Below, one piece after another: positions 7,539-22,226 of a stretch of 28,376 bases of DNA (positions within the stretch are counted from its first letter, which is position 1; each line of letters opens with the position of its first letter). Both the position numbers and the translations under genes were made by a program. A model generated the notes under the pieces. That model worked only from the letters and a program-made list of their open reading frames with translations. It did no database searches and was not told where the DNA came from. The DNA is from a virus: positions 1 through 28,376 of the IMG/VR virus record IMGVR_UViG_3300021375_000122, one strand, 5' to 3'.

Positions 7539-7831
7539 TGCCTAGAAAAAAAGAAAAGCCTATAAGACGTACTACAGGTAAAGGCGGTAATTACCGCTCA
7601 ACTAAATCTGGTGCAGGTATGACTAAAAAAGGAGTAGCCGCTTATAAAAGAAAAAATCCTGGAAGTAAATTAAAAACAGCGGTTACAGGCAAAGTTAAAA
7701 AAGGAAGTAAAGCAGCAAAAAGAAGAAAATCTTATTGTGCTAGAAGTGCAGGACAGATGAAGAAGTTTCCCAAAGCTGCTAAAAACCCTAATTCAAGATT
7801 ACGTCAAGCACGTAAAAGGTGGAAATGTTAA
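7538..7831 (+). CDS. Basic conserved phage protein (97 aa), DUF6321-like
   Basis: Strongly Lys/Arg-rich, with the motif series RRTTGKGGNYRSTKSGAGMT, KNPGSKLKTAV, KRRKSYCARSAGQMKKFP and NPNSRLRQARKRWKC. I recall this as a widespread small phage family, probably DUF6321 (not checked), found in both cyanophages and other marine phages. Its two Cys residues, near residue 67 and at the last position, are typical of the family as I remember it. It is coupled to the preceding basic protein and directly precedes the nuclease. DNA binding is likely by charge; exact role unknown. Confidence 0.8.
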   Translation: MPRKKEKPIRRTTGKGGNYRSTKSGAGMTKKGVAAYKRKNPGSKLKTAVTGKVKKGSKAAKRRKSYCARSAGQMKKFPKAAKNPNSRLRQARKRWKC

Positions 7832-8215
7832 ATGGCTAAAAAAGCACCTGATGCGTTTGTATACAACGCAACGTTAGAAAGGATAGTAGATGGAGACACT
7901 TTTGACTGTTGTCTCGATTTAGGTTTTGATGTTAAACTACATAAACAAAGAGTTCGTCTTTCTGGCATTGATACCCCAGAATCTAGAACTAGAGATTTAG
8001 CAGAAAAGAAATTAGGTCTAGCCGCAAAAGAAAGATTAAAAGAACTTTGTACAGGTAAATTTAAAATAAAATCGTTAGGTAAAGGCAAATATGGTCGTAT
8101 TCTTGGCATACCTTATACTGAAGACGGTAAAGATATTTGTCAAATGCTTATAGACGAAGGTCATGCTGTTGAGTATCATGGAGGTACAAAAACTAAAATC
8201 TGGGGAGATTATTAA
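7832..8215 (+). CDS. Staphylococcal-nuclease-like endonuclease
   Basis: This 127-aa single-domain SNase-fold enzyme cleaves phosphodiester bonds in DNA or RNA with calcium. The start is the ATG directly after the previous TAA. Catalytic residues are present: the VDGDTF loop (D20, D22), R42 and E50 in RVRLSGIDTPE (matching R35 and E43 of staphylococcal nuclease), and R89 in GKYGR (R87). It has no signal peptide, so it acts in the infected cell, perhaps in host DNA degradation or in DNA processing, alongside the small basic proteins encoded upstream. The family is certain; the role in the phage cycle is inferred. Confidence 0.9.
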   Translation: MAKKAPDAFVYNATLERIVDGDTFDCCLDLGFDVKLHKQRVRLSGIDTPESRTRDLAEKKLGLAAKERLKELCTGKFKIKSLGKGKYGRILGIPYTEDGKDICQMLIDEGHAVEYHGGTKTKIWGDY

Positions 8216-8221
8216 TCTCTT

Positions 8222-8572
8222 ATGGATAGTGTTGTCCAATTAATCAATGAAGTAGGTTTTCCTATAGCGGCAGCTATAGGTCTGGGTATGTTTATTTGGA
8301 AACTTATAAACAAAATTATCGATGGTATGGAAACAAAAGTAGATGTTTTAGATGAAAAGGTATCTGCTCAGATATCAGAAATAGAAGCAAGATTAGGTCA
8401 AAAACTAGATTCACAACACGGTATATTAGTAGCACTTATAGACAGAGTTAGGTCGGTGGATAATGAGATAATTAGACAAGATACGCTTTTAAAGACTATA
8501 CTAGGAGTACCACAGCTTATGCATACTGACAGGTTAGCAAAAGCTGATAGAGATGACCAAAGGAAGGATTAA
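8222..8572 (+). CDS. One-TM coiled-coil protein (116 aa), holin-like
   Basis: One hydrophobic segment at about residues 9-27 (EVGFPIAAAIGLGMFIWKLI) is followed by a long coiled coil (about 33-90, with METKVDVLDEKVSAQISEIE). The hydrophobic segment resembles the BhlA/UviB-like small holin group, but the coiled coil is longer than in that group. The Shine-Dalgarno is weak: GGGGAG at 8202-8207 is 14 bases before the ATG. A spanin-like or membrane-anchored scaffold role is also possible. It lies just upstream of the curli-type cassette, and its last base overlaps the next ATG. Confidence 0.65.
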   Translation: MDSVVQLINEVGFPIAAAIGLGMFIWKLINKIIDGMETKVDVLDEKVSAQISEIEARLGQKLDSQHGILVALIDRVRSVDNEIIRQDTLLKTILGVPQLMHTDRLAKADRDDQRKD

Positions 8573-8757
8573 TGAAAAAAGTATTTTTAACAGAGTTTAA
8601 AGTAGGTGATAAAATATACGAAGGTCCCTTCATATATGCTAATACTTTTGAAGAAGCTGATTTAGAAGCAGAAGCTTACGGAGTAGTCATTGTAGGAGAG
8701 GCTAAAATAGTTATAGGAATAGATGAAACTGAAGAACAAGAAAGAGTTTTACATTAG
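8572..8757 (+). CDS. Small acidic hypothetical protein (61 aa)
   Basis: It starts in a TAATG overlap with the upstream membrane protein. It has a beta-strand pattern (KVFLTEFKVGDKIYEGPFIY, VVIVGEAKIVIGIDE) with an intervening Glu-rich helix (TFEEADLEAEAYG), which looks like a small alpha/beta domain. Its stop overlaps the ribosome binding site of the CsgF-like gene, so the two are probably co-translated. No family is recognised and no signal peptide is present. Confidence 0.65.
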   Translation: MKKVFLTEFKVGDKIYEGPFIYANTFEEADLEAEAYGVVIVGEAKIVIGIDETEEQERVLH

Positions 8758-8768
8758 GAGGATTGGTT

Positions 8769-9263
8769 ATGGGAGCACGAAGAACACCTGAAGAAGAAAA
8801 AGACAAAATAATTTGGGCTGTTTTATTTATAGGAATCTGTTTGATTATAGGTATTTTTGTAGAAAATATTAGAGCAGACCAAATAGTCCACAAGTTTAAA
8901 TCTCCTAGTTTTAATGGAGTAGGAACATCATCTCATTATCTAACAATAGAAAACCAAGAGTTTAGTCGTAAATTAACAATTAAAGAAGAAATAAAAGCAC
9001 TACAAGAAGAAATAGAAAGAGAAAAAGAAAACTCTACACTTGCTAGATTTATGCGTAATCTTGAATCAAGAGTTTATGCTGAGTTATCAAGACAACTAGT
9101 TAATAACCTCTTTGGCGAAACACCTTCTGATTCAGGTACAATAACTTTAGAAGGAAACACCATAGAATACACAAGTGATGGTGTAACATTAACTCTTAAA
9201 ATAACGGAAGCCGATGGAACAGTTACTGAAATTACGATACCTATTGGTACTTTTACTTTCTAA
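8769..9263 (+). CDS. csgF: CsgF-like curli secretion accessory protein
   Basis: ATG 8769 is chosen because AGGAGG (8756-8761) has seven-base spacing to it; the TTG at 8763 would leave one base. The 164-aa protein has 13 charged residues, a hydrophobic segment (about 14-31) and a possible cleavage site after IRA (residue 36). Mature-like residues 37-60 match the E. coli CsgF N-terminus: KFKSPSFNG aligns with the FRNPNFGG motif that plugs the CsgG pore. The C-terminal DGVTLTLKITEADGTVTEIT matches the CsgF end. Odd points are a charged helical insertion (about 69-90) absent from E. coli CsgF, and the longer N-terminus. In E. coli CsgF couples the CsgG pore to the curlin nucleator. It overlaps csgG by 50 bases. 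The family call is strong; the function in phage is inferred. Confidence 0.85.
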   Translation: MGARRTPEEEKDKIIWAVLFIGICLIIGIFVENIRADQIVHKFKSPSFNGVGTSSHYLTIENQEFSRKLTIKEEIKALQEEIEREKENSTLARFMRNLESRVYAELSRQLVNNLFGETPSDSGTITLEGNTIEYTSDGVTLTLKITEADGTVTEITIPIGTFTF

Positions 9264-10050
9264 TTGTTCTACATTAGACCAAATTGAAGATACGTACGAA
9301 CATAGGTTTCAAAGACACAATGTAGTAAATATACAGGATTTACAATCTTCAGCCTTACTTGCAGTTGATATTCCAAAAGTTAGTCCTGTAGTTGCTGTTT
9401 ACCCTACAGCGTTTACAGACCAAACAGGTCAGCGTAAATCTAATTCTGAATTCGCTTTATTTAGTACCGCCATAACTCAACAACCTAACGCATTACTTAT
9501 ACGAGCATTAAAACACGCTGGAAACGGTAATTTCTTTAGAGTAGTGGAACGAGTTGGTTTAGATAATCTCACAAAAGAAAGACAACTTATACGTTCTGCT
9601 AGAGAACAATTTGCTAGTGAAGAAGAAAAGAAAAAACAATTAGCTCCTTTATTATTTGCAGGTATTTTAATTGAAGGTGCCGTTATTTCATATGAGGCTA
9701 ATTTAGAGTCGGGAGGTGTTGGTGCAAGATACTTAGGTATTGGAAATAGTATTCAATACAGAGAAGACAATATCACAGTTAGTCTTAGAATGGTTTCTGT
9801 TGCTACAGGAGAAGTATTATTAGAAGTTTTAAGTCAAAAAACTATTTTTAGTTATGGTAAATCTAATGATGTTTTTAGGTTTATAGAAGCTGGAACTGAG
9901 CTAGTAGAAATAGAGTTAGGTAATGCTAGAAACGAGTCTTCTACTATAGCTTTAATGAAAGCTATTGAGGGGGGTGTGTTAGAAATAATTAAATTAGGTT
10001 ACAAAAAAGAATACTGGGTTTTACAAACAAAAGAAAAAAGGGTAGAATGA
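9214..10050 (+). CDS. csgG: CsgG-like curli outer-membrane secretion channel
   Basis: This 278-aa lipoprotein has signal MEQLLKLRYLLVLLLSNC with lipobox LLSNC (Cys18). Alignment with E. coli CsgG is clear along most of the chain: TGQ...FSTAITQ, DNLTKERQLIRSAREQF, AGILIEGAVISYEANLESGG, VGARYLGIGNSIQY, TVSLRMVSVATGEVL, SQKTIFSY, VFRFIEAGTEL and EVYWVLQTKEK-like end. E. coli CsgG forms a nine-subunit, 36-strand beta barrel that exports unfolded curlins through the outer membrane. The start is forced by the signal; 50 bases overlap csgF in the +1 frame. The constriction loop (about 70-86) is one residue longer than in E. coli and lacks the Tyr and Asn. No csgE, csgD or csgC is nearby. Family certain; use by the phage unknown. 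Confidence 0.93.
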   Translation: MEQLLKLRYLLVLLLSNCSTLDQIEDTYEHRFQRHNVVNIQDLQSSALLAVDIPKVSPVVAVYPTAFTDQTGQRKSNSEFALFSTAITQQPNALLIRALKHAGNGNFFRVVERVGLDNLTKERQLIRSAREQFASEEEKKKQLAPLLFAGILIEGAVISYEANLESGGVGARYLGIGNSIQYREDNITVSLRMVSVATGEVLLEVLSQKTIFSYGKSNDVFRFIEAGTELVEIELGNARNESSTIALMKAIEGGVLEIIKLGYKKEYWVLQTKEKRVE

Positions 10051-10054
10051 GATT

Positions 10055-10786
10055 ATGATGATGAAGAAGTGCATACAGTTTTTGCTATGTCTTGCTTTAT
10101 TTCCCCTGTACGCAGCGGATAACGAAATATACGTAGACCAGTCTGGAACTGGTGCAAACATAGATTTAGAACAACTTGGTATATCTAATATTATCGGTGG
10201 TTTAAACTCCTCTGCAGGGAGTTTAACTGCTTTCAATTTAGATGGTACAAGCATGACTCTAGATATTAATATGATAGGAGCTACTAATAAGTTCTTAGGA
10301 GATATTACCGCAGACAGCTTTACTGGTTTTTATGAGTTTACTGGCGGTACTAATGTTTTTACTATTCAAGTAGACCCAACTAATACTTATGGTGCTGATT
10401 CATCTAATCAAAATGTTCAAGTTACTGGTAGTGGCAACACATTTACTTTAAATCAAGGCACTACAGCACTAGCTGCAACTTTAGACCTAGACTGGATTAT
10501 TCAGGGCTCTAACAACACGGTTACATCTAATATTAATATTGACGGTGCTACAAACTATATGGACATAGACGGTTCAGATAACACAATTAATTATACAGGC
10601 ACAGGTGTTACGGCTTCAGCAGGAGGCTATTTTTACTTAGACCACACAGGCGGACAAAGAACATTTAATATTCAACAACTGAGTACCCAAGACAATGACT
10701 GGCTTAAAATTATATCGGTCGGTGGTAACGCTAGTTCTACTGTGTGTGTTGTTCAAAACGACCAAGGCACAAGCACAAGCTGCTGA
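10055..10786 (+). CDS. Secreted curlin-like beta-repeat protein (243 aa)
   Basis: A short signal peptide (MMMKKCIQFLLCLALFPLYA) precedes a mature chain with curlin-like repeats. Residues 29-45 (QSGTGANIDLEQLGISN) fit the curlin spacing Q-x-G-x-x-N...Q-x-G-x-x-N with one extra residue. Further beta-turn units follow: IGATNKF, TGSGNTFTLNQ, QGSNNTVTSNI, DGATNYMDI, DGSDNTINYT. They share a G-x-x-N core with beta strands, so a solenoid or amyloid-like fold is plausible. The end has Cys231 and Cys243. It sits directly after csgG, where a CsgG substrate would be expected. Three ATGs in a row (10055, 10058, 10061) could start it; the first is used. The last 92 bases overlap the FecR gene in another frame. 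It is not an obvious CsgA/CsgB orthologue, and could be another secreted repeat protein. Confidence 0.7.
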   Translation: MMMKKCIQFLLCLALFPLYAADNEIYVDQSGTGANIDLEQLGISNIIGGLNSSAGSLTAFNLDGTSMTLDINMIGATNKFLGDITADSFTGFYEFTGGTNVFTIQVDPTNTYGADSSNQNVQVTGSGNTFTLNQGTTALAATLDLDWIIQGSNNTVTSNINIDGATNYMDIDGSDNTINYTGTGVTASAGGYFYLDHTGGQRTFNIQQLSTQDNDWLKIISVGGNASSTVCVVQNDQGTSTSC

Positions 10787-11816
10787 TATTGGGGACATAT
10801 CTGAACTAAATGGTTCAGCACAAATAGTAAGAGACAAACCATACGACGCTAATTTAAAATTTGCTATACAAAGCAACGATGAAGCTATAACTAAAGATGG
10901 CAGAATGGCTATTAAGTTTTTAGACGATTCTACAGTCAAACTTACTGAACACTCACAACTTTTAATAGATGAATATATCTATGACCCTGACCCATCTAAA
11001 TCAAAAATGGCTCTTACCTTTGGTCTTGGTACAGCAAGATTTATTACAGGCAATCTTAATAGAATAGATAAACAAAATATAAAACTTAAAACACCTACAG
11101 CAAATATTGCGATAAGAGGAACAGATTTTACAGCTACAGTAGATGAGTTGGGTAGGTCATTAATAATACTTCTGCCTGACGCTTTAGGTTTATCTAGCGG
11201 TGAAATAGAAGTAGTTACTGCTATGGGAACTGTTTTATTAAATAAACCTTATGAAGCTACAACTGTAAGTGTTTTTGAATCAGCTCCTAGTAAACCAGTT
11301 ATTTTAGATTTAACGTTAGATGTTATCGATAATATGTTAATTGTTACTCCTCCTAAAAAAGAAAAAATAGCATACGAAGAACAAGTTTCTGCTAAACAAG
11401 AAAGTATTTTAGATTTTAATGAACTAGACGTAGATTACTTAGAGGTGGATTATTTAGGCGAGGATGAGCTTGAATTTACGGAACTCGATATTAATTTTCT
11501 AGACGTAAATTATCTTGAAGACCTTCTTAATGTATTAGACGCATTAGCTATAGCAGAAGATGAAGATGCTTTAGCCCAAGCTACAAGCACACAAATATCT
11601 GGAACTCTTTTAGGTAAAGACCCAGACACTCAAATAACAGCTTTAATAACTGGAAATGTTATTAGTTTACGAAGACAAGTTAATGAAAGCGTTAGAGTTG
11701 ATTTGAACGGTAGTGATGCGTACACCGTAATTTTGATACAAGACGGAGTATCTAATATAATCAAGGTGAACGGAGGAAGCGATAGTGTTATAACCATTAC
11801 GCAAAACGATGGATGA
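10695..11816 (+). CDS. Secreted FecR-domain protein with curlin-like C-terminus
   Basis: The 373-aa protein has a signal peptide (MTGLKLYRSVVTLVLLCVLF, cleavage likely near AQA, residues 25-29), then a FecR domain (about 32-150: ISELNGSAQIVRD, FLDDSTVKLTEHSQL, GTARFITGN, IKLKTPTANIAIRGTDF). In other bacteria such proteins often pair with CHASE2 cyclases or act in surface signalling. Residues about 225-290 are acidic repeats (ELDVDYLEVDYL, ELDINFLDVNYL) followed by Leu/Ala. The end has curlin-like spacing: LIQDGVSNIIKV and VITITQNDG (residues 347-373). The start lies 92 bases inside the upstream gene in the +1 frame because the signal peptide is needed. The stop overlaps the cyclase start (ATGA), so both are likely made together. 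Family clear; ligand and role unknown. Confidence 0.8.
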   Translation: MTGLKLYRSVVTLVLLCVLFKTTKAQAQAADIGDISELNGSAQIVRDKPYDANLKFAIQSNDEAITKDGRMAIKFLDDSTVKLTEHSQLLIDEYIYDPDPSKSKMALTFGLGTARFITGNLNRIDKQNIKLKTPTANIAIRGTDFTATVDELGRSLIILLPDALGLSSGEIEVVTAMGTVLLNKPYEATTVSVFESAPSKPVILDLTLDVIDNMLIVTPPKKEKIAYEEQVSAKQESILDFNELDVDYLEVDYLGEDELEFTELDINFLDVNYLEDLLNVLDALAIAEDEDALAQATSTQISGTLLGKDPDTQITALITGNVISLRRQVNESVRVDLNGSDAYTVILIQDGVSNIIKVNGGSDSVITITQNDG

Positions 11817-13546
11817 AAAAATTAATAATACCTTTATTAATCATTTTAGTATTACCTTTAGTATTTCAAACAACACCCACAGAAATATTAAAACTTAAAG
11901 TATTCGACACTTTTATAAAAGAACAGCAGCCTTCTGGTAATTTTGTTATTTTAAATATAACAGAAGAAGATGTTGAACGTGAGGGTGGTTATCCTTTACC
12001 TAGAAAAAGATTAGCAGATATACAATTAGAGTTATTAGGTAAAGGAGCTCTTGGTGTTGGTTGGGTTATAAGTTTTCCACAACCTGATAGACTTATGGGG
12101 GATGAGGATTTTGCTAGGTCTTTAGGCTATGCTCCTAGTGTTATCGCTATGTTTGAGACACCTAATAATAAATACCCTAAAACTACAGGCACTGTTATAA
12201 AAGGAGAAGATATTGGTGGTATACTTACACAGGGAGTCAAGGAAAATTTCTACACCTACGAAAATATACTACAAGGAATCGCCAGTGCTCCCACCGAAGT
12301 AGACCAATTAGTTAGACGAGTCCCTTTGTTATTAAGAACGCCTGAAGGTTGGGTAGCTTCTTTTGGTACACAAATATACAAAGCATTATTCGATGTTAAA
12401 ACGTATATTATTTCAACTAATCAAAACGGTATTCAAGAAATAGCTATACGAGGAATACCTCCAGTTAAAACAGATAGTCTTGGTCGTAAATGGATTAGTT
12501 GGGTAGATACACCACAAACTAATTTACAAGAAATGGAAGTAAATGGTAAGTTTGTTTTTGTAGGTGTTACAGCTAACGGTGTAATGCCTCAGGTTGCTAC
12601 GCCTGTTGGATTACTAGAACCGCATAAAATACAAGCTGCTCTTGCAGAGTCTCTTTTAATCCAGGATAGTCCTTATATACCTGATTACGCTTTAGCATTA
12701 GAACTTCTTATTTTTATAGCTTCTGTGGGGCTCGTATGGGCTTTTATAAGCTATTTAGGTATAACATGGGGCGTAAGCTTAGCTTTACTTACGATGGCTT
12801 TAACGGGCTTCTACGGTTATTACACGATATCTATGGGTGTTTTAATAGATGTTACGTGGTCTTTAGTTTCACAGTTTATCGCAGGAGCTATAGCTTTCTA
12901 TTTAAGATTTAGAGAACAATATAAACTAAGACAACAAATCAAAAAACAATTTGAACATTATCTTGACCCACGACAAGTTAAACGTTTACAAAAAGACCCT
13001 AGCTTATTAAAACTAGGGGGCGAAAAAAGACGCTGTACGTTTTTATTTACAGATGTTAGAGGATTTACAGCTTTATCAGAAACGTTATCACCTGAAGAAG
13101 TAACAGTAATAATGAATAAAGCATTAACTATACAATCAAACGCAGTACAAAAACACGGCGGTATGGTTGATAAATATATAGGTGATGCAATGATGGCTAT
13201 CTTTAATGCACCTATGGATTTACTACACCACGAACGGATAGCTGTAGAATGTGCTAAAGAAATACAAGAAAATATAATAAAAGCTGATATTGGTGTTGAA
13301 ATCGGTGTCGGTGTAAATACAGGCGAAGCTGTTATTGGTAATATGGGAAGCGATACACGGTTTGATTATTCAGCTATAGGAGACGCTGTAAATACCGCTG
13401 CTAGACTAGAATCTGCAACTAAAGAAGCAGGTGTGAATATACTTATAGGAGAAGAAACAGAGTTATATTGTGGGTATAGATTAAAAAAATTAAAACCGAT
13501 AAAAGTAAAAGGTAAAGAAAAACCTTTAAAAATATACACTTTTTGA
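11813..13546 (+). CDS. CHASE2-domain class III adenylate cyclase
   Basis: The 577-aa protein likely makes cAMP from ATP. Layout: an N-terminal membrane segment (about 3-19), an extracytoplasmic CHASE2 sensor (about 25-285), three membrane segments (about 295-313, 318-338, 342-363), a short linker, then a cytoplasmic class III catalytic domain (about 405-577). The motifs are intact: metal-binding D414 (FTDVRGFT) and D458 (YIGDAMMAIF), substrate Lys454 (MVDKYIGD), a Ser520 in the class IIIb Thr/Ser position, and Asn527 and Arg531 (AVNTAARLE). Guanylate cyclases would have Glu/Cys-type residues there, so adenylate is more likely. It is coupled to the FecR gene by ATGA. In a phage this enzyme would give the infected cell a surface-coupled second messenger. 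Activity is predicted only. Confidence 0.88.
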   Translation: MKKLIIPLLIILVLPLVFQTTPTEILKLKVFDTFIKEQQPSGNFVILNITEEDVEREGGYPLPRKRLADIQLELLGKGALGVGWVISFPQPDRLMGDEDFARSLGYAPSVIAMFETPNNKYPKTTGTVIKGEDIGGILTQGVKENFYTYENILQGIASAPTEVDQLVRRVPLLLRTPEGWVASFGTQIYKALFDVKTYIISTNQNGIQEIAIRGIPPVKTDSLGRKWISWVDTPQTNLQEMEVNGKFVFVGVTANGVMPQVATPVGLLEPHKIQAALAESLLIQDSPYIPDYALALELLIFIASVGLVWAFISYLGITWGVSLALLTMALTGFYGYYTISMGVLIDVTWSLVSQFIAGAIAFYLRFREQYKLRQQIKKQFEHYLDPRQVKRLQKDPSLLKLGGEKRRCTFLFTDVRGFTALSETLSPEEVTVIMNKALTIQSNAVQKHGGMVDKYIGDAMMAIFNAPMDLLHHERIAVECAKEIQENIIKADIGVEIGVGVNTGEAVIGNMGSDTRFDYSAIGDAVNTAARLESATKEAGVNILIGEETELYCGYRLKKLKPIKVKGKEKPLKIYTF

Positions 13547-13554
13547 TATATAAT
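13525..13554 (+). promoter_or_regulatory. Candidate internal sigma70-type promoter
   Basis: TTTAAA (13525-13530) is followed after 18 bases by TATAAT (13549-13554). A perfect inverted repeat, TTGAT-ATATA-ATCAA (13543-13557), covers the -10. Transcription would begin at about 13561, just before the foldable leader and a small gene that head the second structural block. The -35 is weak and the region is AT-rich, so chance matches are common. Confidence 0.4.
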
Positions 13555-13562
13555 CAATATAT

Positions 13563-13635
13563 CAGCCATTGTGCTGCAGCTTACGGGGTGAGCTTTAACT
13601 CGCAAATACGTGTAGACACGCTGGAGAAACAATGG
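13563..13635 (+). promoter_or_regulatory. Foldable leader that can hide a start codon
   Basis: Between the cyclase stop and the next gene there are 85 bases with several complementary segments. CCATTGT (13566-13572) pairs perfectly with ACAATGG (13629-13635), which contains the ATG of the 35-codon gene. Inside are GTGAG/CTCGC (13588-13592 with 13599-13603) and CGTG/CACG (13609-13612 with 13617-13620). CAGC (13563-13566) can alternatively pair with GCTG (13573-13576), which would compete with the outer stem. The GGAG ribosome site (13623-13626) lies just inside the outer stem. It could be a cis-regulatory RNA; I see no match to a known riboswitch. Confidence 0.4.
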
Positions 13636-13739
13636 TTGGAGTAGATAAAAAGACTTATAAGAAAAAAGCACAGAGCCGTTCGGGTTTTGTTATATACTCG
13701 TCTAAAGGAAAAAAGACAAAATCGAGGAGCCGTTTCTAA
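13632..13739 (+). CDS. Small basic protein, 35 aa
   Basis: ATG 13632 has GGAG five bases before it (13623-13626) and the stop overlaps the next gene's ATG (TAATG). The 35 residues are mostly Lys, Arg and Ser (VGVDKKTYKKKAQSRSGF, SKGKKTKSRSRF) with one short hydrophobic patch (GFVIY). There is no recognised family. The tight coupling on its 3' side and proper ribosome site support that it is translated. It could serve as a leader peptide for translation of the downstream cupin-like gene, or as a small DNA/RNA-binding protein. Confidence 0.5.
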   Translation: MVGVDKKTYKKKAQSRSGFVIYSSKGKKTKSRSRF

Positions 13740-14284
13740 TGGCTTTGTCTCTTATTAAAAATCCAGAACTAACTTATCAAGAAGCTTGTGAATTTTTTGA
13801 TTATAAAGAAAATAAAATAAAGTTTCAAAATAAAATAAAAGAGTTTGAAGCAGCTATTACTAAGCACTGCGAAGAAAACAATAATCAAGATTTAAACAGC
13901 CAAATAACAGGTCAGACCGAAGGAGCTGTTACACATAACTTTGCAGACGGTCAATACATAAGAAAAATTGTTATGCCTAAAGGGTTATTAGTTACAACTA
14001 AAATACATGCCAAAAACCATCCTTTCTTTATTATGAAAGGAGAAGCATCTATTTATAGCAATAACGGAGTAGAACGTATAGAAGCACCTTTTCATGGAAT
14101 AACTGAAGCAGGAACAAAAAGAGTTTTATATATCCATGAAGAATGTACTTTTATAACAGTACATAGAACAGATTGTTTAAGTATAGATGACGTTGTAAAT
14201 GAAATAACAGTTGATGATTTTTCTAAACTAAACTTAAAAGGTTTTGATATAGAACAAATAGATAAAATAATGGAGAAAATTTAA
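13739..14284 (+). CDS. Cupin-like phage protein (181 aa)
   Basis: The first ~65 residues are helical and charged. The remainder (about 66-145) is a beta-rich domain with regularly placed histidines: FADGQYIRKIVMPKGLLVTT, KIHAKNHPFFIMKGEASIYS (H90, H94, E102), a Gly-turn, APFHGITEAGTKRVLYIHEE (H119, H133) and TVHRTD (H142). This resembles the cupin metal-binding pattern, and I recall similar proteins in marine phages near structural genes. The role is unknown; structural or sugar-modifying roles have been guessed for the group. It uses GAGGAG nine bases ahead of its ATG and is coupled to the next gene (TAATG). Confidence 0.7.
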   Translation: MALSLIKNPELTYQEACEFFDYKENKIKFQNKIKEFEAAITKHCEENNNQDLNSQITGQTEGAVTHNFADGQYIRKIVMPKGLLVTTKIHAKNHPFFIMKGEASIYSNNGVERIEAPFHGITEAGTKRVLYIHEECTFITVHRTDCLSIDDVVNEITVDDFSKLNLKGFDIEQIDKIMEKI

Positions 14285-15273
14285 TGGCGTTAGCAAGTAT
14301 AGCAACAGCCATAGCGGTTGGGGTAGGAACAAATTTAATCACTAGAAAAATTGCTGGCGACCCTGATATGCCTGCACAAATTGGTAGTGGAACTTCTCCT
14401 TCGTTAACTCCAGGAGCCGATATAGAAATCAATCCTATAATGGGTAGTGAAGTTCAAGAGTTTGGTGATTTTAAATTTGAAGATTTAACTTCTCCAGAAG
14501 ATGGACAAAAAGAAATGATACTAGCACAGTTAAAAGAAGCAGGAGTAGATGTAGCTGATTTAGACCAATACGGTATTGCAGGTATGGCTGTTGGTGGTTA
14601 TTTAAACAGAGCTAACGGCGGTAATTTAGGATTAATGGCTTTATTAAAAGAACAAGGTCTTATTCCCGAAGATAAACCAGAAAGTTTATCGGGTGTTGTT
14701 GATGTAGATTTTTCTGAAATAGCAGAACCAAAACCAGAAGATTTATTAGAAGAACAAATGATGGCAGACATAAATTTTGAAATGCCTGATGTTCCTATGC
14801 CTGAAAATCCTTTAACAAATTTACAAAAAGTAGAATCTTTTATAGATAACCAAAATCCTATGGTGTCTGAAGCAATATACAGTGGTTTAGGAAGTATAGG
14901 CTCGGCTTTGTTTGGTGAGTTATTTGGTTTAAATGATAAAAAACGTAAAGGTAGTTTAGTAAAAACTGAAACACTTCCTGGAAACTCTAATAGAAGAAGA
15001 AGTCAATTAGATAAAATTTCACCTATTGGTGGCTCTAGTGTAACATTTGCTAACGAAGGTAAAGTATTACAAAGACCAATGTTTATGCCTCAGGGAGGTC
15101 CTATGAGAGGTCCAGGTGGTCCTAAGGACGATTTAATTCCAGTAATGGCGAGTAACGGAGAGTACATGTTGTCTAAGGCAGCAGTAGATGCAGCAGGTGG
15201 TGGCAGTCATGCTAAAGGAGTTGCTGTTTTAGATAAATTTAATAAAATGGGAAATAAGAGATATGGCGTCTAG
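14284..15273 (+). CDS. Structural / internal virion protein (329 aa)
   Basis: The N-terminus begins with a hydrophobic Ala/Ile-rich helix (ALASIATAIAVGVGTNLI) that could be a membrane-interacting segment of an ejection protein. The middle is acidic and Met/Pro-rich (DVPMPENPLTNLQ). The C-terminus has the motif PQGGPMRGPGGPKDDLIPVM followed by ASNGEYMLSKAAVDAAGGGS, which I recall as a shared terminal module in structural proteins of marine phages. It overlaps the next gene by 11 bases. The likely role is inside the virion, inferred from this motif and the neighbouring large proteins. The exact function is unknown. Confidence 0.65.
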   Translation: MALASIATAIAVGVGTNLITRKIAGDPDMPAQIGSGTSPSLTPGADIEINPIMGSEVQEFGDFKFEDLTSPEDGQKEMILAQLKEAGVDVADLDQYGIAGMAVGGYLNRANGGNLGLMALLKEQGLIPEDKPESLSGVVDVDFSEIAEPKPEDLLEEQMMADINFEMPDVPMPENPLTNLQKVESFIDNQNPMVSEAIYSGLGSIGSALFGELFGLNDKKRKGSLVKTETLPGNSNRRRSQLDKISPIGGSSVTFANEGKVLQRPMFMPQGGPMRGPGGPKDDLIPVMASNGEYMLSKAAVDAAGGGSHAKGVAVLDKFNKMGNKRYGV

Positions 15274-17200
15274 AGAAGAACAAGAATATTCCAGTCAAGC
15301 CCCCGCCCCGTATATAGGGCAGTTTTTACAACAGGATATATTTCCTTTTGCACAACAATTTTTAAGGCAACAGTTTCAAAACTTAGGTCAGGCTGATTCA
15401 AGTCCATTTACTTACACAGGACAAAGGGTTGCTGATTTTGACCCTAGAGAACTTTATGGTATGGAACTTGCTGATTCAGCTATCGGCAGCTATAGACCGT
15501 ATTTAGGTGCACAAGCCGATTTACTAGACGAAGCGGCAGGAATATCTAGAGGAGCATTAGCTAGAGGTCAAGACGAAATAACCGCAGGACTAGGTGCGGG
15601 TAGAGGATTAGCAGGTTTAGGTGCTGACCTTACTAGAGGAGCAAGATTCGATACAGCAGGTAGAGATTTATTAGCAGGAGCACAACAAAGACAATCAGGT
15701 AGAGGTCTTATAGAAGGAGCAAGGTTCGGTCAATCAGGTAGAGATTACTTACAAAGCGGAGTACCTTCGTTCAGTGAAGCACAAGCATTAACAAGAGCAG
15801 GAGCACCTAATTTAGATTTAGCTAGAATGGAAACAGCAGCAGCTAGACCACAGTTCGGTGGTGCTAGAGCTGGTTTTGCAGGTGCTAGAGCAGAAACTTT
15901 AGGAGCAAGACCAGATTTTAGAGGAGCTACAGGAACATTAGGTAGAGCAGAACAAACAGGTTATGGTTCCACAGGTAGTTTTGACCCCAGAGGAATAGGA
16001 AGTTTTTATAATCCGTTCGAAGAAGACGTAGTACAACAAACATTAAAAGACGTTAGAGAAGGTTTAGCTAAAAGCGATATGGGTTTAAGAGACGAAGCTG
16101 TTAGTGGAGGAGCTTTCGGCGGAGCTAGGTCAAGATTAAGACGTGGTGAACTAGCAGAAAATGTTGCAAGAGGAGCAGCAGAACAAGTAGGAGCTATCCG
16201 TAGTGGCGGTTATTCTGACGCGGCTAATAGAGCACAACAAGCTTTTGAAGCACAACAACAAAGACAAGCAGGTCTTGCAGGATTACAATCTAATATAGCA
16301 GGACAGCTAGGTGGTTTCGCAGGTCAAGAAGCACAAACCGCATTAGGTAGAGCTTCGCAGTTAGGTAATTTAGCAGGTCAAGAAGCAGGATTAGCAGGTC
16401 AAGAAGCACAAAGTGCTTTAGCCAGAGGTAGACAGTTCGGCGACCTTTCTACAACCGAAGCTCAAAACCAACTAGCTAGAGCACAACAACTAGGAAGTTT
16501 AGAAGCACAACAAGCACAGGCTAAATTAGCAACAGGTCAAGCACTAAACGCTTCTGAACAAGCAGCTATAGACAATATGATGTCTAGAGGACAACAATTA
16601 AATACTTTAGACCAACAAAGATTTGCTAATCAAATGCAACAAGGACAACAGTTATCTAATATAGACCAACAAAGATTTGCTAATCAGTTACAACAAGGCT
16701 CACAATTAGGTGCTTTAGGACAACAACAGTTCGGTATGGGGCTACAAGGTGGTCAGGGCTTAGCAGGACTAGGTCAACAAACAGCAGGTGCATTAAGTGG
16801 TTTTGGTAGTCAATACGGTGGTATGGCTAGTTTATTACCACAACTACAACAACAAGATATTTCATCAATGATGGGTATGGGTGGACTAGGTAGAGGAAGA
16901 CAACAGTCTTTAATGGATTTAAACTACCAAAACTTTACAGGTCAGTACAACTTACCTATGCAAACGTTACAAAACGTTGGAGCACTTACAGCTTCTCTTG
17001 GACCTATGGCAGGTGGTTATGGCTATGCGGGTGGTGCACAAGCTCCTTACGGTAATTATTCACCCACAGGAACTATGGGAACAGGGTTGATGAATCAAGG
17101 TATAGCAGGTCTTAATCCTGCTCCTGGTCAAAATCAAACGCAGGGACCAGTTAAAGGATTCCCTAACTTCTCAATTCAAAACATGGGGATGCAGTTTTAA
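15263..17200 (+). CDS. Gln/Ala/Gly-rich structural protein (645 aa)
   Basis: The N-terminus (APYIGQFLQQDIFPFAQQFL) and a YTGQRVADFDPRELYGMELA stretch are like those of structural proteins in marine phages. From about residue 115 to 500 it consists of repeating helical units rich in Ala, Gly, Gln and Arg: GARFGQSGRD, ARPQFGGARAGFAGAR, LAGQEAQ(T/S)ALARG, QQRFANQ(M/L)QQGQQL. The C-terminus is Gly/Pro-rich. Long helical repeats fit a tape-measure-like or internal virion (ejection) protein. It starts 11 bases before the upstream stop and its own stop overlaps the next ATG. Which virion part it forms is not clear. Confidence 0.65.
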   Translation: MASREEQEYSSQAPAPYIGQFLQQDIFPFAQQFLRQQFQNLGQADSSPFTYTGQRVADFDPRELYGMELADSAIGSYRPYLGAQADLLDEAAGISRGALARGQDEITAGLGAGRGLAGLGADLTRGARFDTAGRDLLAGAQQRQSGRGLIEGARFGQSGRDYLQSGVPSFSEAQALTRAGAPNLDLARMETAAARPQFGGARAGFAGARAETLGARPDFRGATGTLGRAEQTGYGSTGSFDPRGIGSFYNPFEEDVVQQTLKDVREGLAKSDMGLRDEAVSGGAFGGARSRLRRGELAENVARGAAEQVGAIRSGGYSDAANRAQQAFEAQQQRQAGLAGLQSNIAGQLGGFAGQEAQTALGRASQLGNLAGQEAGLAGQEAQSALARGRQFGDLSTTEAQNQLARAQQLGSLEAQQAQAKLATGQALNASEQAAIDNMMSRGQQLNTLDQQRFANQMQQGQQLSNIDQQRFANQLQQGSQLGALGQQQFGMGLQGGQGLAGLGQQTAGALSGFGSQYGGMASLLPQLQQQDISSMMGMGGLGRGRQQSLMDLNYQNFTGQYNLPMQTLQNVGALTASLGPMAGGYGYAGGAQAPYGNYSPTGTMGTGLMNQGIAGLNPAPGQNQTQGPVKGFPNFSIQNMGMQF

Positions 17201-18867
17201 TGGCAAACGGTAATAGAGGTATAGGAGGCTTTATGCCTTTTCCAACTTTCGGTGGACCTAAAGACGCAGGGGGAATTACACCTGTTAAACTAGCTCCGAC
17301 TCAAATGAGATTTCCAACGGCTCGTGGACCTGTTAGACGTACACCTGAACCAGAAACTATAGAAAAAATAGCTCCTTTTCTTCCTTTAGTGACTGAAGGT
17401 GTTATGAGTTTATTTAAAGACACGCCTAAACCTCAATCAAGAGACGATTATCTTAAAAGTATCGCTGTTGATGCAACAGAGCCCACTAAGTTAGAAGAAG
17501 CAAGGGCTGATGCCTACACATTGTTTGGAGCACCCGAACAAAGAGACGGTTTTGGTCTTAATGAACTAGTTAATTTAGCTGTCGGTAGCCAAACAGGTAG
17601 AGGAGCAAAAGATTTTGCTAATACGTATTTTCAAATTAGAAAAGGTAAAGAAGCCGCTAGAGTATCTAAAGAAGGACAAAGAGCAAGTTTCATACAAAAA
17701 CAAATAGACCCTGACGCTTTTCAATTTTTAAATTTACAAGATACTAATAAAGCTAAAACAGGTGTAGTTGATATACGTCCAGGATATTTTGATAAAGAAA
17801 CAGGACAAACCTATATAAAAGACCCTAAAAATAAAGAAGCTAATGAGTATGGATTTATTGTTGCTGGTGAAAACTGGATAGACCCTGCTAAATTAGCTAC
17901 TAGTGGTTCAACAGGTATTGATATTTACAAAGACCCTCAGTATACCGAACTTGTAAAAACTAATACAGAAATAACTGCTAAAGACAGTGCGGTTATGGGA
18001 ACATTAAACGTTGCTAATAACACAATAGAGATGTTAGACGAAGCTATTAAAGACCCTAGTAAAGCACCGACAACTGTTGTTTCTTCTATACTGAATATGG
18101 GTAATAGTGCTATAGCAAACTTTGACCAAATAGCTTCATTAAACGGTAATCGTGACCCTCTAACATATTTCAGTGCTGATGACGCAGGTGGTAGTATGTT
18201 TATAGGTAGAGGAGATAACGCTAGAGAATTATATATAGCTCTTAAATCAGGAGACGAAGAACAAATAGAACGAGCTACGGCTAATTTTGAAAACGCAACA
18301 GGAACAAACCTTAGACAAGTTATGGGTCAAGCTGCTTACGCTAACGTAGCAACTAGAGCAAATTTTTTACAATTAGCTTATATGGCAGCGGCAGCAAACG
18401 GTCAAACAGGTAGAACGCTTTCTGATAAAGACTTAGCACATCATTTGAATATAGTTGGTTTTGGTTCAACACAAGACCCTAAAGTATTGAAAGACAACTT
18501 AATACGTTTTGTTGATACTTTGGTTGGTGGAGCAGATGACCAAACACAAGTAGCTATTCCTAGAAACGGGTTACAACGTTACAATATGAATGACGAAACA
18601 TTTCAGTCTATTGTTACTATGTATTATAATCCGTTGATAGGAAAAGACGCATCAGGAGCAGATACGCCTCAATGGTTAAACCACAGTGCTTATACTTACA
18701 AACCTTTTTACGAAAGATATAAAGGTGTAGGAGCAGTAGACCAGTGGCAAAAACACGACACAATGTTTTACGATAGAAAAACAAAAGGCTCAGCTAATTT
18801 AACGTCGCCTGTAAATCCATCCGTAGATTTAGATAAAACATTAAAAGACATAGAAAACTTATATTAA
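17200..18867 (+). CDS. Structural-region protein of unknown function (555 aa)
   Basis: It starts with a Pro/Gly-rich leader (FMPFPTFGGPKDAGG, PTARGPVRRTPEPET), then mostly helical segments. The centre (about residues 170-220) has a YFDKETGQTYIKDPKNKEA beta part, the remainder is mixed, and an FLQLAYMAAAANGQTGRTLS stretch lies near residue 395. It has no signal peptide or clear membrane segment. It is coupled to both neighbours through TAATG. It lies between the Gln-rich protein and the very large protein, so a role as an internal or ejected virion protein is likely by context. I do not recognise the family. Confidence 0.65.
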   Translation: MANGNRGIGGFMPFPTFGGPKDAGGITPVKLAPTQMRFPTARGPVRRTPEPETIEKIAPFLPLVTEGVMSLFKDTPKPQSRDDYLKSIAVDATEPTKLEEARADAYTLFGAPEQRDGFGLNELVNLAVGSQTGRGAKDFANTYFQIRKGKEAARVSKEGQRASFIQKQIDPDAFQFLNLQDTNKAKTGVVDIRPGYFDKETGQTYIKDPKNKEANEYGFIVAGENWIDPAKLATSGSTGIDIYKDPQYTELVKTNTEITAKDSAVMGTLNVANNTIEMLDEAIKDPSKAPTTVVSSILNMGNSAIANFDQIASLNGNRDPLTYFSADDAGGSMFIGRGDNARELYIALKSGDEEQIERATANFENATGTNLRQVMGQAAYANVATRANFLQLAYMAAAANGQTGRTLSDKDLAHHLNIVGFGSTQDPKVLKDNLIRFVDTLVGGADDQTQVAIPRNGLQRYNMNDETFQSIVTMYYNPLIGKDASGADTPQWLNHSAYTYKPFYERYKGVGAVDQWQKHDTMFYDRKTKGSANLTSPVNPSVDLDKTLKDIENLY

Positions 18868-21800
18868 TGGCTATTACGCAACAACAATTTGATGAATTTA
18901 AAAAGATGCAAGAAACATATGCTCTTGATTTATCAAAACAACCTTTAAAAGATAATCCCAACATTACCTACGGTCAGTTGTTATCTCCTAAAGAACTAGA
19001 CTTAGCAGCTATTCTATATAGTCCTGAACTTAAATCGAAAGCTACAAGTATCTATTCATCAGAAGACATGAGCAAGATAGAAAACGCTATTGATTGGCAA
19101 AACAGAGTTGCTCCTTATAATAGAGCACCTATCGAATATGATATGTACGAACGTCATCCTGAGTATATGAAACAACTAGATGAGTTTAATAGTCCCGAAG
19201 GTCAAGAAAGAAGAAACATGATAAAAGTTCGTGGTAATTTTCCTGATACTTATGAACCGTTAGAGCCTATTGCTCCATTAGGAATAGAAAAAGCAAAAAA
19301 GATAGCGGCTCTTGGTTTTGACCCTGCGAATGAATTACAGTTTCAAACATTTAAAGACGGTGTTGGTTTTAGAAGTAAGTTAGCTTTTGCACCTAGAAAA
19401 ACAACAGTAGAAGATTTTAAAAAACTAGGCGACCAGTACGGTTTAGTTGGTGATTATAGATACATAAACCCTAGCGACCCTTCGTTAGGTTTAGCTTTTA
19501 AACCTGAAGGTTCTGATGATTTTCAATTATTAAATACGCCATACGTTACTGCAGAAGATACCTATAACTTTTTAATACAAGAATTTCCTGCAATAGCAGG
19601 TGATATAGCTTTAACAGTATATGGTTCTAAAAAGTTTACTAGTCCTTTTGGTTTAAGTGATAAAGTAAGCGGCAAAGTTGGTAAAGTTTTAGGTTTATCT
19701 GGTTTATCGGCAGCAGGTGCAGCAGGTGGAGACTTTTTACGTTTAACTGCTGGTTCTGCCATGGGAGCTCACGATAGAGATTTCGATGATATATTAAAAG
19801 AATCAGGAATGATTGGTGCATGGGCGTTTGGTGGTACTGCTGTTATCAGTGGAGCCGCACAAACGATACCTAAAATTTGGAAAATGATTACAGGTAAAGA
19901 CGTGCCTCCTAGTTTTTATGAAAAGATAGATGATGCTATGCAAGAAGCTAGAGCACAAGAACGAGGAGACGGAGCATTAGCTTCTGGAATACTTTACGGT
20001 GATGCAACGTCAGTAAAAGTAATTAATGACCAAATAAATGATTTAGCTAAACGTTTCGATGTAGAACTAAAAAACTATAACCCTACAATAGCTTCAGCTG
20101 CTGGTACACAAGGTGCTGCTGATTTAGAAACATTATTCTTAAAATACGCAGACGACCCTGATTTAAGAGAGTTGTATCAACAAGTAAAAATAGGCAACCA
20201 AGAAGTTATTGACCGTTTTATACAAACACTAAACGAAAAAGTTGGACCTTCAACTACAGGCGGTGCAACAGGGGCAACGGTTAGTGCTGGTGTACGAGAA
20301 CTAGCTCAAAAAGATATAGATGCTTTTAACGACCAAGCCTACGATATGATTGACCAAGTTAGGCTGCAAGTGGGTGGTGCTGATGATGCTGCTGTTGCAG
20401 GTCAGTCGTTATTGAAACAAGTTGACGACCCTAATGCTTCTACTGGACCTTTGTTTGAAAGACAACAAACTAGACTATTAGAAATTAAAAAAGACTACAT
20501 AGCCCCATATAACCAAGCTTGGAATGCTGCTTTAGAAAATCCTCGTTATGTTAATTTAACCACAGGTGCAGGATTTACAAGAAAACCTATTAATGAATGG
20601 ATGAATTTAAGAAAAGGTGACGCTAATAAGCTGTTTAAATCAGCTGATGCAAGTGAATCTGTTAAGTTGTTATACGAACAATTACCTGCAGGAACTCAAA
20701 ACACTTTAAATAGATTAGCTGGTAGAAATCAAAAAGGTAAATTTGAATCACCTAATTTTACGTTAAGAGAACTTAATGACGCTAGAGTATCGTTAAATGA
20801 ATTCGCTAGTACAACTAATAACCTAAAAGCAGCAAAACAAGCAAGACAATTAGAACGTGGATTAGAAGAACAAATGAATCAATTGTTACGAGAAGGTGCT
20901 TCTGCTGAATCAGGTATACCTATTACAAGAAAAGTAGAATTAGAAAACTGGATGACGCAAAATAAATACGGTGATGATTTAAGACTAGCTTGGTCAGAAC
21001 AAAAAGAAGCTATACAGTTAGCTAATTCACAAGCAGTACGTTCTATATTAGAACAAAGACCTGAAAAAGTTGCAGATTATTTATTTAATACTGTGGCTAA
21101 AGGCAGTAAACAAAACACCGTTGTTACTGATTTAATGACGTTACTAAAAAGAGACGGTTCTGACGAAGTAAGACAAATACAAAACGGTTTAGCTGAATAT
21201 ATACAAAGAGAAGTATTATCTAACCCAGATAAAACACCGCTACAATTAGCTAGAGATTATAGAAAGTTTGTTACCGATAACGAAGGAACTTTACGTGCGG
21301 TGTTTGGTGATGATTTCCAAGCAAGATTTTTACAGAACCCTAAACAGTTTAATAAAGCAGTTATAGAGCCGTTAAAAAATTTAGAACAAAATATATTAAA
21401 AATAGAGGCTCGTGTTGGATTGGCTAATAAAGGTCCTGCTGATAGAAGGGTAGCTAATATTGTTGAATCTATTCTAGCTACAGGTAAAACACAAAGACAG
21501 TCTGGAATATTATTAGATGACATAGACTATATTACAAACATAGTTAAAAAAGACCCACTATTACAAGACCAAGTTGCACAAGTAACAAAACGTTATTTAA
21601 TGCAAGAAATGATGGAGCCTAGAGCAGGTGGTGGTTTTGTTATAAGTCCTCAAAAATTAAATGATTTATTATATAAAGGTTTTGGTCCCGAAGATGTTAC
21701 AGGTCCAACACTAACTTTCGATAATTTTGTACAACCATTGTTAGGTAAAGAAGGCAAAGATTATGTAGCTAATTTAAAAGTTATAAATGAAATGGTACAA

Positions 21801-22226
21801 AGAGAAATGGGGGCTATGCCTAGTAAGGGTGTGGTTAGAGATTTAACTAGAGGTGAGTATGGAGCAGGTGCTAACATCGAAGGTATTAGAATGTTACAAA
21901 GATTACTTATTGCTCCGTTAACACAAACAGGTAGAAGAATAACAGCTCTTTCTAATAGCCAAGCTAACAGGTCGCGAAAGTTTATTGGACGTATGTTATT
22001 AGACCCAGAACTATTTGAAAGAACAGCAAGTTTCGCTAAAGGACAGCAATCAACTCAGAATTTTATAAGGTTTTTAAGTAGTTATGGTTTTGTGTATGGT
22101 GAAGATTTAGGTAACGAAATGAAGTATTATGATACAGTAGATAAGGCTCAAAAAACTCCTGAAAACAGAAATTTTATAGATGAAACACAAGAACGAGCTA
22201 AAGTCATTACAGGAGGAACTAACTAA
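18867..22226 (+). CDS. Very large internal / ejection-type virion protein (1119 aa)
   Basis: It is the largest complete gene in the window. Residues about 230-340 have small-residue hydrophobic stretches (LSGLSAAGAAGGDFLRLTAG and MIGAWAFGGTAVISGAAQTI) that could enter a membrane, as seen in ejection proteins of T7-like phages. The remainder is mostly helical, with long charged segments and a Gly/Thr linker (PSTTGGATGATVSAGV) near 460. No lytic transglycosylase or protease motif is seen. It may be the equivalent of an internal core protein in podoviruses, by size and position only. It is coupled to neighbours (TAATG on both sides). Confidence 0.6.
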   Translation: MAITQQQFDEFKKMQETYALDLSKQPLKDNPNITYGQLLSPKELDLAAILYSPELKSKATSIYSSEDMSKIENAIDWQNRVAPYNRAPIEYDMYERHPEYMKQLDEFNSPEGQERRNMIKVRGNFPDTYEPLEPIAPLGIEKAKKIAALGFDPANELQFQTFKDGVGFRSKLAFAPRKTTVEDFKKLGDQYGLVGDYRYINPSDPSLGLAFKPEGSDDFQLLNTPYVTAEDTYNFLIQEFPAIAGDIALTVYGSKKFTSPFGLSDKVSGKVGKVLGLSGLSAAGAAGGDFLRLTAGSAMGAHDRDFDDILKESGMIGAWAFGGTAVISGAAQTIPKIWKMITGKDVPPSFYEKIDDAMQEARAQERGDGALASGILYGDATSVKVINDQINDLAKRFDVELKNYNPTIASAAGTQGAADLETLFLKYADDPDLRELYQQVKIGNQEVIDRFIQTLNEKVGPSTTGGATGATVSAGVRELAQKDIDAFNDQAYDMIDQVRLQVGGADDAAVAGQSLLKQVDDPNASTGPLFERQQTRLLEIKKDYIAPYNQAWNAALENPRYVNLTTGAGFTRKPINEWMNLRKGDANKLFKSADASESVKLLYEQLPAGTQNTLNRLAGRNQKGKFESPNFTLRELNDARVSLNEFASTTNNLKAAKQARQLERGLEEQMNQLLREGASAESGIPITRKVELENWMTQNKYGDDLRLAWSEQKEAIQLANSQAVRSILEQRPEKVADYLFNTVAKGSKQNTVVTDLMTLLKRDGSDEVRQIQNGLAEYIQREVLSNPDKTPLQLARDYRKFVTDNEGTLRAVFGDDFQARFLQNPKQFNKAVIEPLKNLEQNILKIEARVGLANKGPADRRVANIVESILATGKTQRQSGILLDDIDYITNIVKKDPLLQDQVAQVTKRYLMQEMMEPRAGGGFVISPQKLNDLLYKGFGPEDVTGPTLTFDNFVQPLLGKEGKDYVANLKVINEMVQREMGAMPSKGVVRDLTRGEYGAGANIEGIRMLQRLLIAPLTQTGRRITALSNSQANRSRKFIGRMLLDPELFERTASFAKGQQSTQNFIRFLSSYGFVYGEDLGNEMKYYDTVDKAQKTPENRNFIDETQERAKVITGGTN

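Follow-up and report, generated by a model that had tools for sequence, protein, structure and literature searches.

A further phage copy of the curli secretion cassette, with FecR and CHASE2 cyclase genes and a small membrane protein gene ahead of csgF

The window, i.e. the whole stretch of 28,376 nucleotides analysed here, is a linear 28.4-kb IMG/VR record (IMGVR_UViG_3300021375_000122). Profile searches assigned the following run of genes:

8222-8572, plus strand: small membrane and coiled-coil protein of 116 aa, YvrJ/holin-like, hereafter HOL (phrog_18771, 2.2e-16; holin phrog_4898, 2.1e-5)
8769-9263, plus strand: CsgF (PF10614, 4.5e-16); the frame is open from TTG 8763 (8763-9263), and 8769 is its first ATG
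9214-10050, plus strand: CsgG, outer-membrane lipoprotein pore (PF03783, 3.8e-46)
10055-10786, plus strand: curlin-repeat protein (CsgA/B-like), with a signal peptide (by eye) and a beta-repeat body
10695-11816, plus strand: exported FecR-domain protein (PF04773, 2.1e-9)
11813-13546, plus strand: membrane-bound CHASE2 sensor with class III adenylate cyclase (PF05226, 4.4e-24; PF00211, 1.2e-20)

The genes from csgF to the cyclase gene abut or overlap their neighbours and stand in the order that a preliminary description, made from the letters alone, had given for a gapless five-gene set. Its limits were right for these five genes and one gene too short, as the small membrane protein gene at 8222-8572 belongs to the cassette too. 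Four of the five genes also fall in phage protein families of unknown function; signal peptides and the lipobox were judged by eye. As the same description had it, phage genes lie on both sides: tail fibre, stabilisation protein, endolysin, nuclease and holin-like genes upstream, and tail-fibre adhesin and ejection-type protein genes downstream. The stabilisation protein has relatives at 33-40% identity in phage DSL-LC04, Roseobacter phages CRP-901/902 and Pelagibacter phages HTVC027P/HTVC023P, and the source of the window is likely a podophage akin to the HTVC023P type. A promoter scan gave a signal no higher than in shuffled sequences. Elsewhere in the window, two large proteins (555 and 1119 aa; 17200-22226) had no match in PHROG or in 50,697 phage records, and a basic 35-aa open frame between the cyclase and adhesin genes (13632-13739; MVGVDKKTYKKK...RSRF) is kept in phages whether or not they carry the cassette.

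The pore and its partner are the best-defined parts of the set. The CsgG profile matches solved CsgG structures (E=2.3e-68), and the lipobox Cys18 is invariant in 31 sequences; the outer-membrane pore of a curli, or type VIII, secretion system is thus present. In CsgF, an FxxPxFxG segment aligns, weakly (E=0.0036), to the mature N terminus of E. coli CsgF, and its residues F45, P48, F50 and G52 are invariant in 32 sequences. CsgF is accordingly predicted, from sequence, to bear the CsgG-binding N terminus expected of such a system. Because these four positions are conserved, we favour a continued pairing of CsgF with CsgG, contrary to the divergence considered in PMC9004378. CsgE was found in none of 14 records (the window and 13 related ones, among them three bacterial cassette genomes), which extends the earlier remark that no csgE lies nearby; this protein has been described as non-essential (PMC7029224).

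The gene at 10055-10786 had been called curlin-like, and its relatives bear this out. Searched alone, the window protein remains below threshold against the Pfam family Curlin_rpt (E=0.23), while 17 of 30 homologues match that family (PF07012; best 8.6e-6). The motif QxGxxN occurs 1.77 times per protein in the curlin-protein set compared to 0.10 in shuffles (about 17 times commoner), and the Gly-x-x-Asn and Gln positions (GxxN/Q) are invariant and regularly spaced. An AlphaFold model is all-beta (pLDDT 82, pTM 0.79); a search of the PDB with this model returned nothing significant. The profile matches the solved curlin-repeat protein 8c50 (E=9.6e-4) in a compositionally biased alignment. Together, the family matches and repeats indicate a putative curlin-repeat substrate, as a type VIII system would need.

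All 37 homologues of the FecR-domain protein contain PF04773, and the structure model of the protein matches the periplasmic signalling domain of PupR (6ovk, E=4.4e-5). A stretch resembling a signal peptide opens the protein and the FecR domain comes next, with neither an anti-sigma N-terminal domain nor a further Pfam domain; therefore, the role of a classical FecR anti-sigma regulator is not supported. We also considered its C terminus as a fused curlin domain and rejected this idea: QxGxxN occurs in 23 of 37 homologues, yet the profile comparison was not significant (hhalign probability 3%). In the cyclase, D414, K454, D458 and R531 are invariant and N527 is nearly so across 30 sequences, so that the two metal-binding Asp, the substrate Lys and the transition-state Asn/Arg of class III adenylate cyclases appear to be intact. 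A FecR-domain gene adjoins a CHASE2 cyclase gene in 4 of 19 alphaproteobacterial loci outside curli operons. This speaks for a functional pairing apart from curli and makes it plausible that the two proteins form a sensing pair here.

The preliminary description had proposed a new kind of auxiliary system. This does not hold: the gene set was published between 2020 and 2022 and is present in the GenBank records of HTVC008M and Melnitz, and the contig is a further copy of a known phage curli secretion cassette. Part of the set was described from pelagimyophages in 2020 (PMC7029224). Two accounts followed in 2022, one of the methylophage Melnitz (PMC9004378) and one of a type VIII secretion set in HTVC023P-type podophages and pelagimyophages, with curlin, FecR and adenylate cyclase included (PMC9599517); the latter paper also saw its expression in metatranscriptomes. 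The module of PMC9599517 (CsgF-CsgG-CsgA/B-FecR-(CsgA/B)-AC, without CsgE, CsgD or CsgC and with one or two short proteins ahead) has the order found in the window, which carries one curlin gene and the cyclase. The T4-like myophage HTVC008M (KC465899) shares csgF, csgG, curlin, FecR-like and cyclase genes with two HOL homologues before csgF, at about 35-49% protein identity and with an extra gene between FecR and cyclase. Methylophilales phage Melnitz (MZ577097), a myophage of OM43, encodes CsgF, CsgG, curlin, FecR, curlin and cyclase and likewise has a HOL pair before csgF; PMC9004378 states that csgA/csgB are absent, whereas the GenBank record lists two 'curlin associated repeat' proteins.

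The curli system of E. coli (csgBAC-csgDEFG) resembles the window in its CsgG and CsgF homologues and its curlin repeats, and differs in including CsgE, CsgD and CsgC. To our knowledge, the E. coli operon holds neither FecR nor cyclase.

Recurrence was the check proposed in the preliminary description, and a single occurrence its counter-case. Scans of viral contigs found 304 CsgG relatives and, in a second scan, at least 596 cyclase relatives. The complete order CsgF-CsgG-curlin-FecR-cyclase is present in 106 of 160 fetched loci on at least 100 distinct IMG/VR contigs (six contigs were fetched via both the CsgG and the cyclase query), and the check is thus passed by a wide margin. The other counter-case, a bacterial fragment joined onto a phage contig during assembly, was suggested by genes of bacterial type within a phage operon and is refuted by independent contigs that cross both junctions (42 and 67 alignments), one (L006) at 98% identity over 7801-14400 and others at about 80-86%.

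The small membrane proteins that always precede csgF in phage cassettes are a new lead. HOL relatives are often a tandem pair of about 95 aa each directly before csgF. All 94 complete cassettes with upstream sequence have one or two HOL-type proteins ahead of csgF, either next to it or with one small gene in between; the remaining 12 of the 106 start at a contig end. Conversely, csgF/G lies downstream in 65 of 66 HOL loci, in a scan that finds close relatives only. PMC9599517 places one or sometimes two short 'histidine kinase' genes upstream of csgF. These are probably the HOL genes, as inferred from position; neither the window HOL nor any of 28 relatives has a histidine kinase or kinase domain, and they show a weak likeness to YvrJ or holin families. 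We do not favour the HOL pair as a plain lysis holin, given that the podophage loci with a pair that we read gene by gene have a separate 3TM holin-like gene too. The single-copy HOL of the window, which stands in the position of that 3TM gene, may be a lysis holin; an 80% identical relative of this single-copy form lies among clustered lysis genes at a locus with no csg gene (L236:916-1263).

The cassette as a whole can be absent. In nine sister-phage loci the flanking genes are kept and the entire block, including HOL, is missing; in the seven of these read gene by gene (L251, L287, L292, L295, L296, L297 and L311; L252 and L260 by gene order only), the slot is filled by an unrelated secreted-protein set. 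This alternative module, between the nuclease and adhesin/g14284 genes, comprises a 3TM holin-like protein, an N/T-rich repeat protein in some phages, a protein of about 720-770 aa with a mostly signal-peptide-like start, and a 115-121-aa transmembrane and coiled-coil protein. The slot thus seems to swap two unrelated secreted-protein modules. In two loci the cyclase alone is missing.

Bacterial counterparts exist as well. A genome scan found the csgF-csgG-curlin-FecR-cyclase operon in Hyphomonas TMED17 and two Caulobacteraceae MAGs (L314, L316 and L317) on contigs of 706, 83 and 32 kb, and the flanks of the two loci read gene by gene hold chromosomal metabolic genes rather than phage genes, as judged by eye from the translations. 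These operons share the gene order of the phage set, and their CsgG and cyclase are the nearest to phage among sampled bacteria; unlike the phage set, they have no HOL genes. PMC9599517 states that FecR and cyclase do not occur in bacterial type VIII operons, with which these three genomes are at odds. In trees of CsgG and of the cyclase, the three bacterial and the phage copies lie together on one side of a fully supported branch, apart from the other sampled bacteria. Neither tree resolves how the phage and bacterial cassette copies branch from one another within this group, so that the trees do not show which was donor and which recipient. Among 299 genomes of the order of G001, only G001 itself holds a close FecR relative, and the bacterial operon is therefore rare in that order. 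Four further loci binned in bacterial MAGs (L315, Sphingobacteriales; L318, Planctomycetaceae; L320, Pelagibacter; L347, Pirellulales) look like misbinned phage DNA with a curli cassette, and a 1.5-kb 'Salmonella phage' record (OR851715.1) with a CsgG at 44% identity is probably host bacterial DNA.

From the gene identities, their fixed order and recurrence, the intact catalytic residues and the presence or absence of the block, all observed directly, we infer that the cassette serves the export of curli-like surface fibres late in infection, with sensing by the FecR protein and the cyclase, a reading to which we assign a probability of roughly 0.6. The cassette would be the phage version of a curli (type VIII) secretion operon of alphaproteobacterial type, and it is probably switched on together with the late genes. 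In the outer membrane, CsgG would form the pore, capped by the N terminus of CsgF, and the curlin-repeat protein, accompanied by a second one in many relatives, would leave through this pore and assemble into amyloid-like fibres on the surface of the infected cell. Together, the exported FecR-domain protein and the CHASE2 cyclase may act as a periplasm-to-cytoplasm pair that senses some envelope state and makes cAMP, and the small membrane proteins before csgF would be a phage-side addition. The likely benefit would lie at the cell surface, where neighbouring hosts might be aggregated or superinfection blocked. Fibre export is backed by the family identities, the conserved pore-binding segment of CsgF, the curlin repeats, the single order in 106 of 160 loci, the HTVC008M/Melnitz set, the block-less sister phages, the bacterial counterparts, the CsgG and cyclase trees and the metatranscriptomic expression given in PMC9599517. 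Against it stand the lack of CsgE, a cAMP target that is unexplained, and the report that Melnitz-infected cultures show no clumping and that CsgG and CsgF may no longer pair (PMC9004378). Curli cassettes are abundant in ocean phages, and the module itself is already published; if hosts are indeed made to display amyloid-like fibres, the picture of how phages in the ocean encounter new hosts would change.

Three other roles were weighed against fibre export. The CsgG pore could serve lysis in a pinholin- or secretin-like manner, partnered in the inner membrane by the small membrane protein, as put forward for Melnitz (PMC9004378); the position of the window cassette after the endolysin and a holin-like gene, and the single-copy HOL in the csg-free lysis-gene neighbourhood of L236, would fit. 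We do not favour this role and consider it unlikely, as CsgG is an outer-membrane lipoprotein and not an inner-membrane pore, curlin-repeat substrate genes stay with it, the csg-less sister phages retain the endolysin, and the HOL-pair podophage loci have their own 3TM holin-like gene. Quite unlikely, too, is a pore that takes up large nutrients or cofactors across the outer membrane during infection, with the curlin gene secondary (PMC7029224, PMC9599517): the absent CsgE gate agrees with uptake, but uptake does not account for CsgF, curlin, FecR and cyclase being conserved in a fixed arrangement. That curlin, CsgF or FecR belong to the virion or act in adsorption, instead of being displayed by the infected cell, is very unlikely; the cassette does lie in the midst of tail genes and trades places with another secreted-protein module beside the tail-fibre adhesin gene, but the signal peptides, lipobox and export pore indicate secretion, and the cassette has other neighbourhoods in myophages and other viral contigs.

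Besides the small proteins before csgF and the bacterial operons already holding FecR and cyclase, a third useful lead lies in the Pelagibacter order. We sampled 147 genomes of the order to which G004 belongs, a MAG labelled Candidatus Pelagibacter. Class III cyclases are missing from all of them. A cNMP-binding domain occurs in ten, nine times in a frame of 870 aa and once in a frame of 372 aa that lies at a contig end; these long frames do not resemble a CRP protein, and none of 14 phage records has a cNMP-binding domain or receptor. It is for these reasons that the target of the cAMP is unexplained: in a Pelagibacter host, any cAMP made would lack a known receptor. This apparent lack of cAMP machinery turns the purpose of the cyclase into a sharp and testable question. 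One tentative reading, which we regard as improbable, is that phages remade the bacterial curli operon, such that the paired small membrane proteins, found in our sample in phages only, are inner-membrane export or gating parts replacing CsgE and the cyclase brings cAMP signalling to hosts without cAMP enzymes and receptors.
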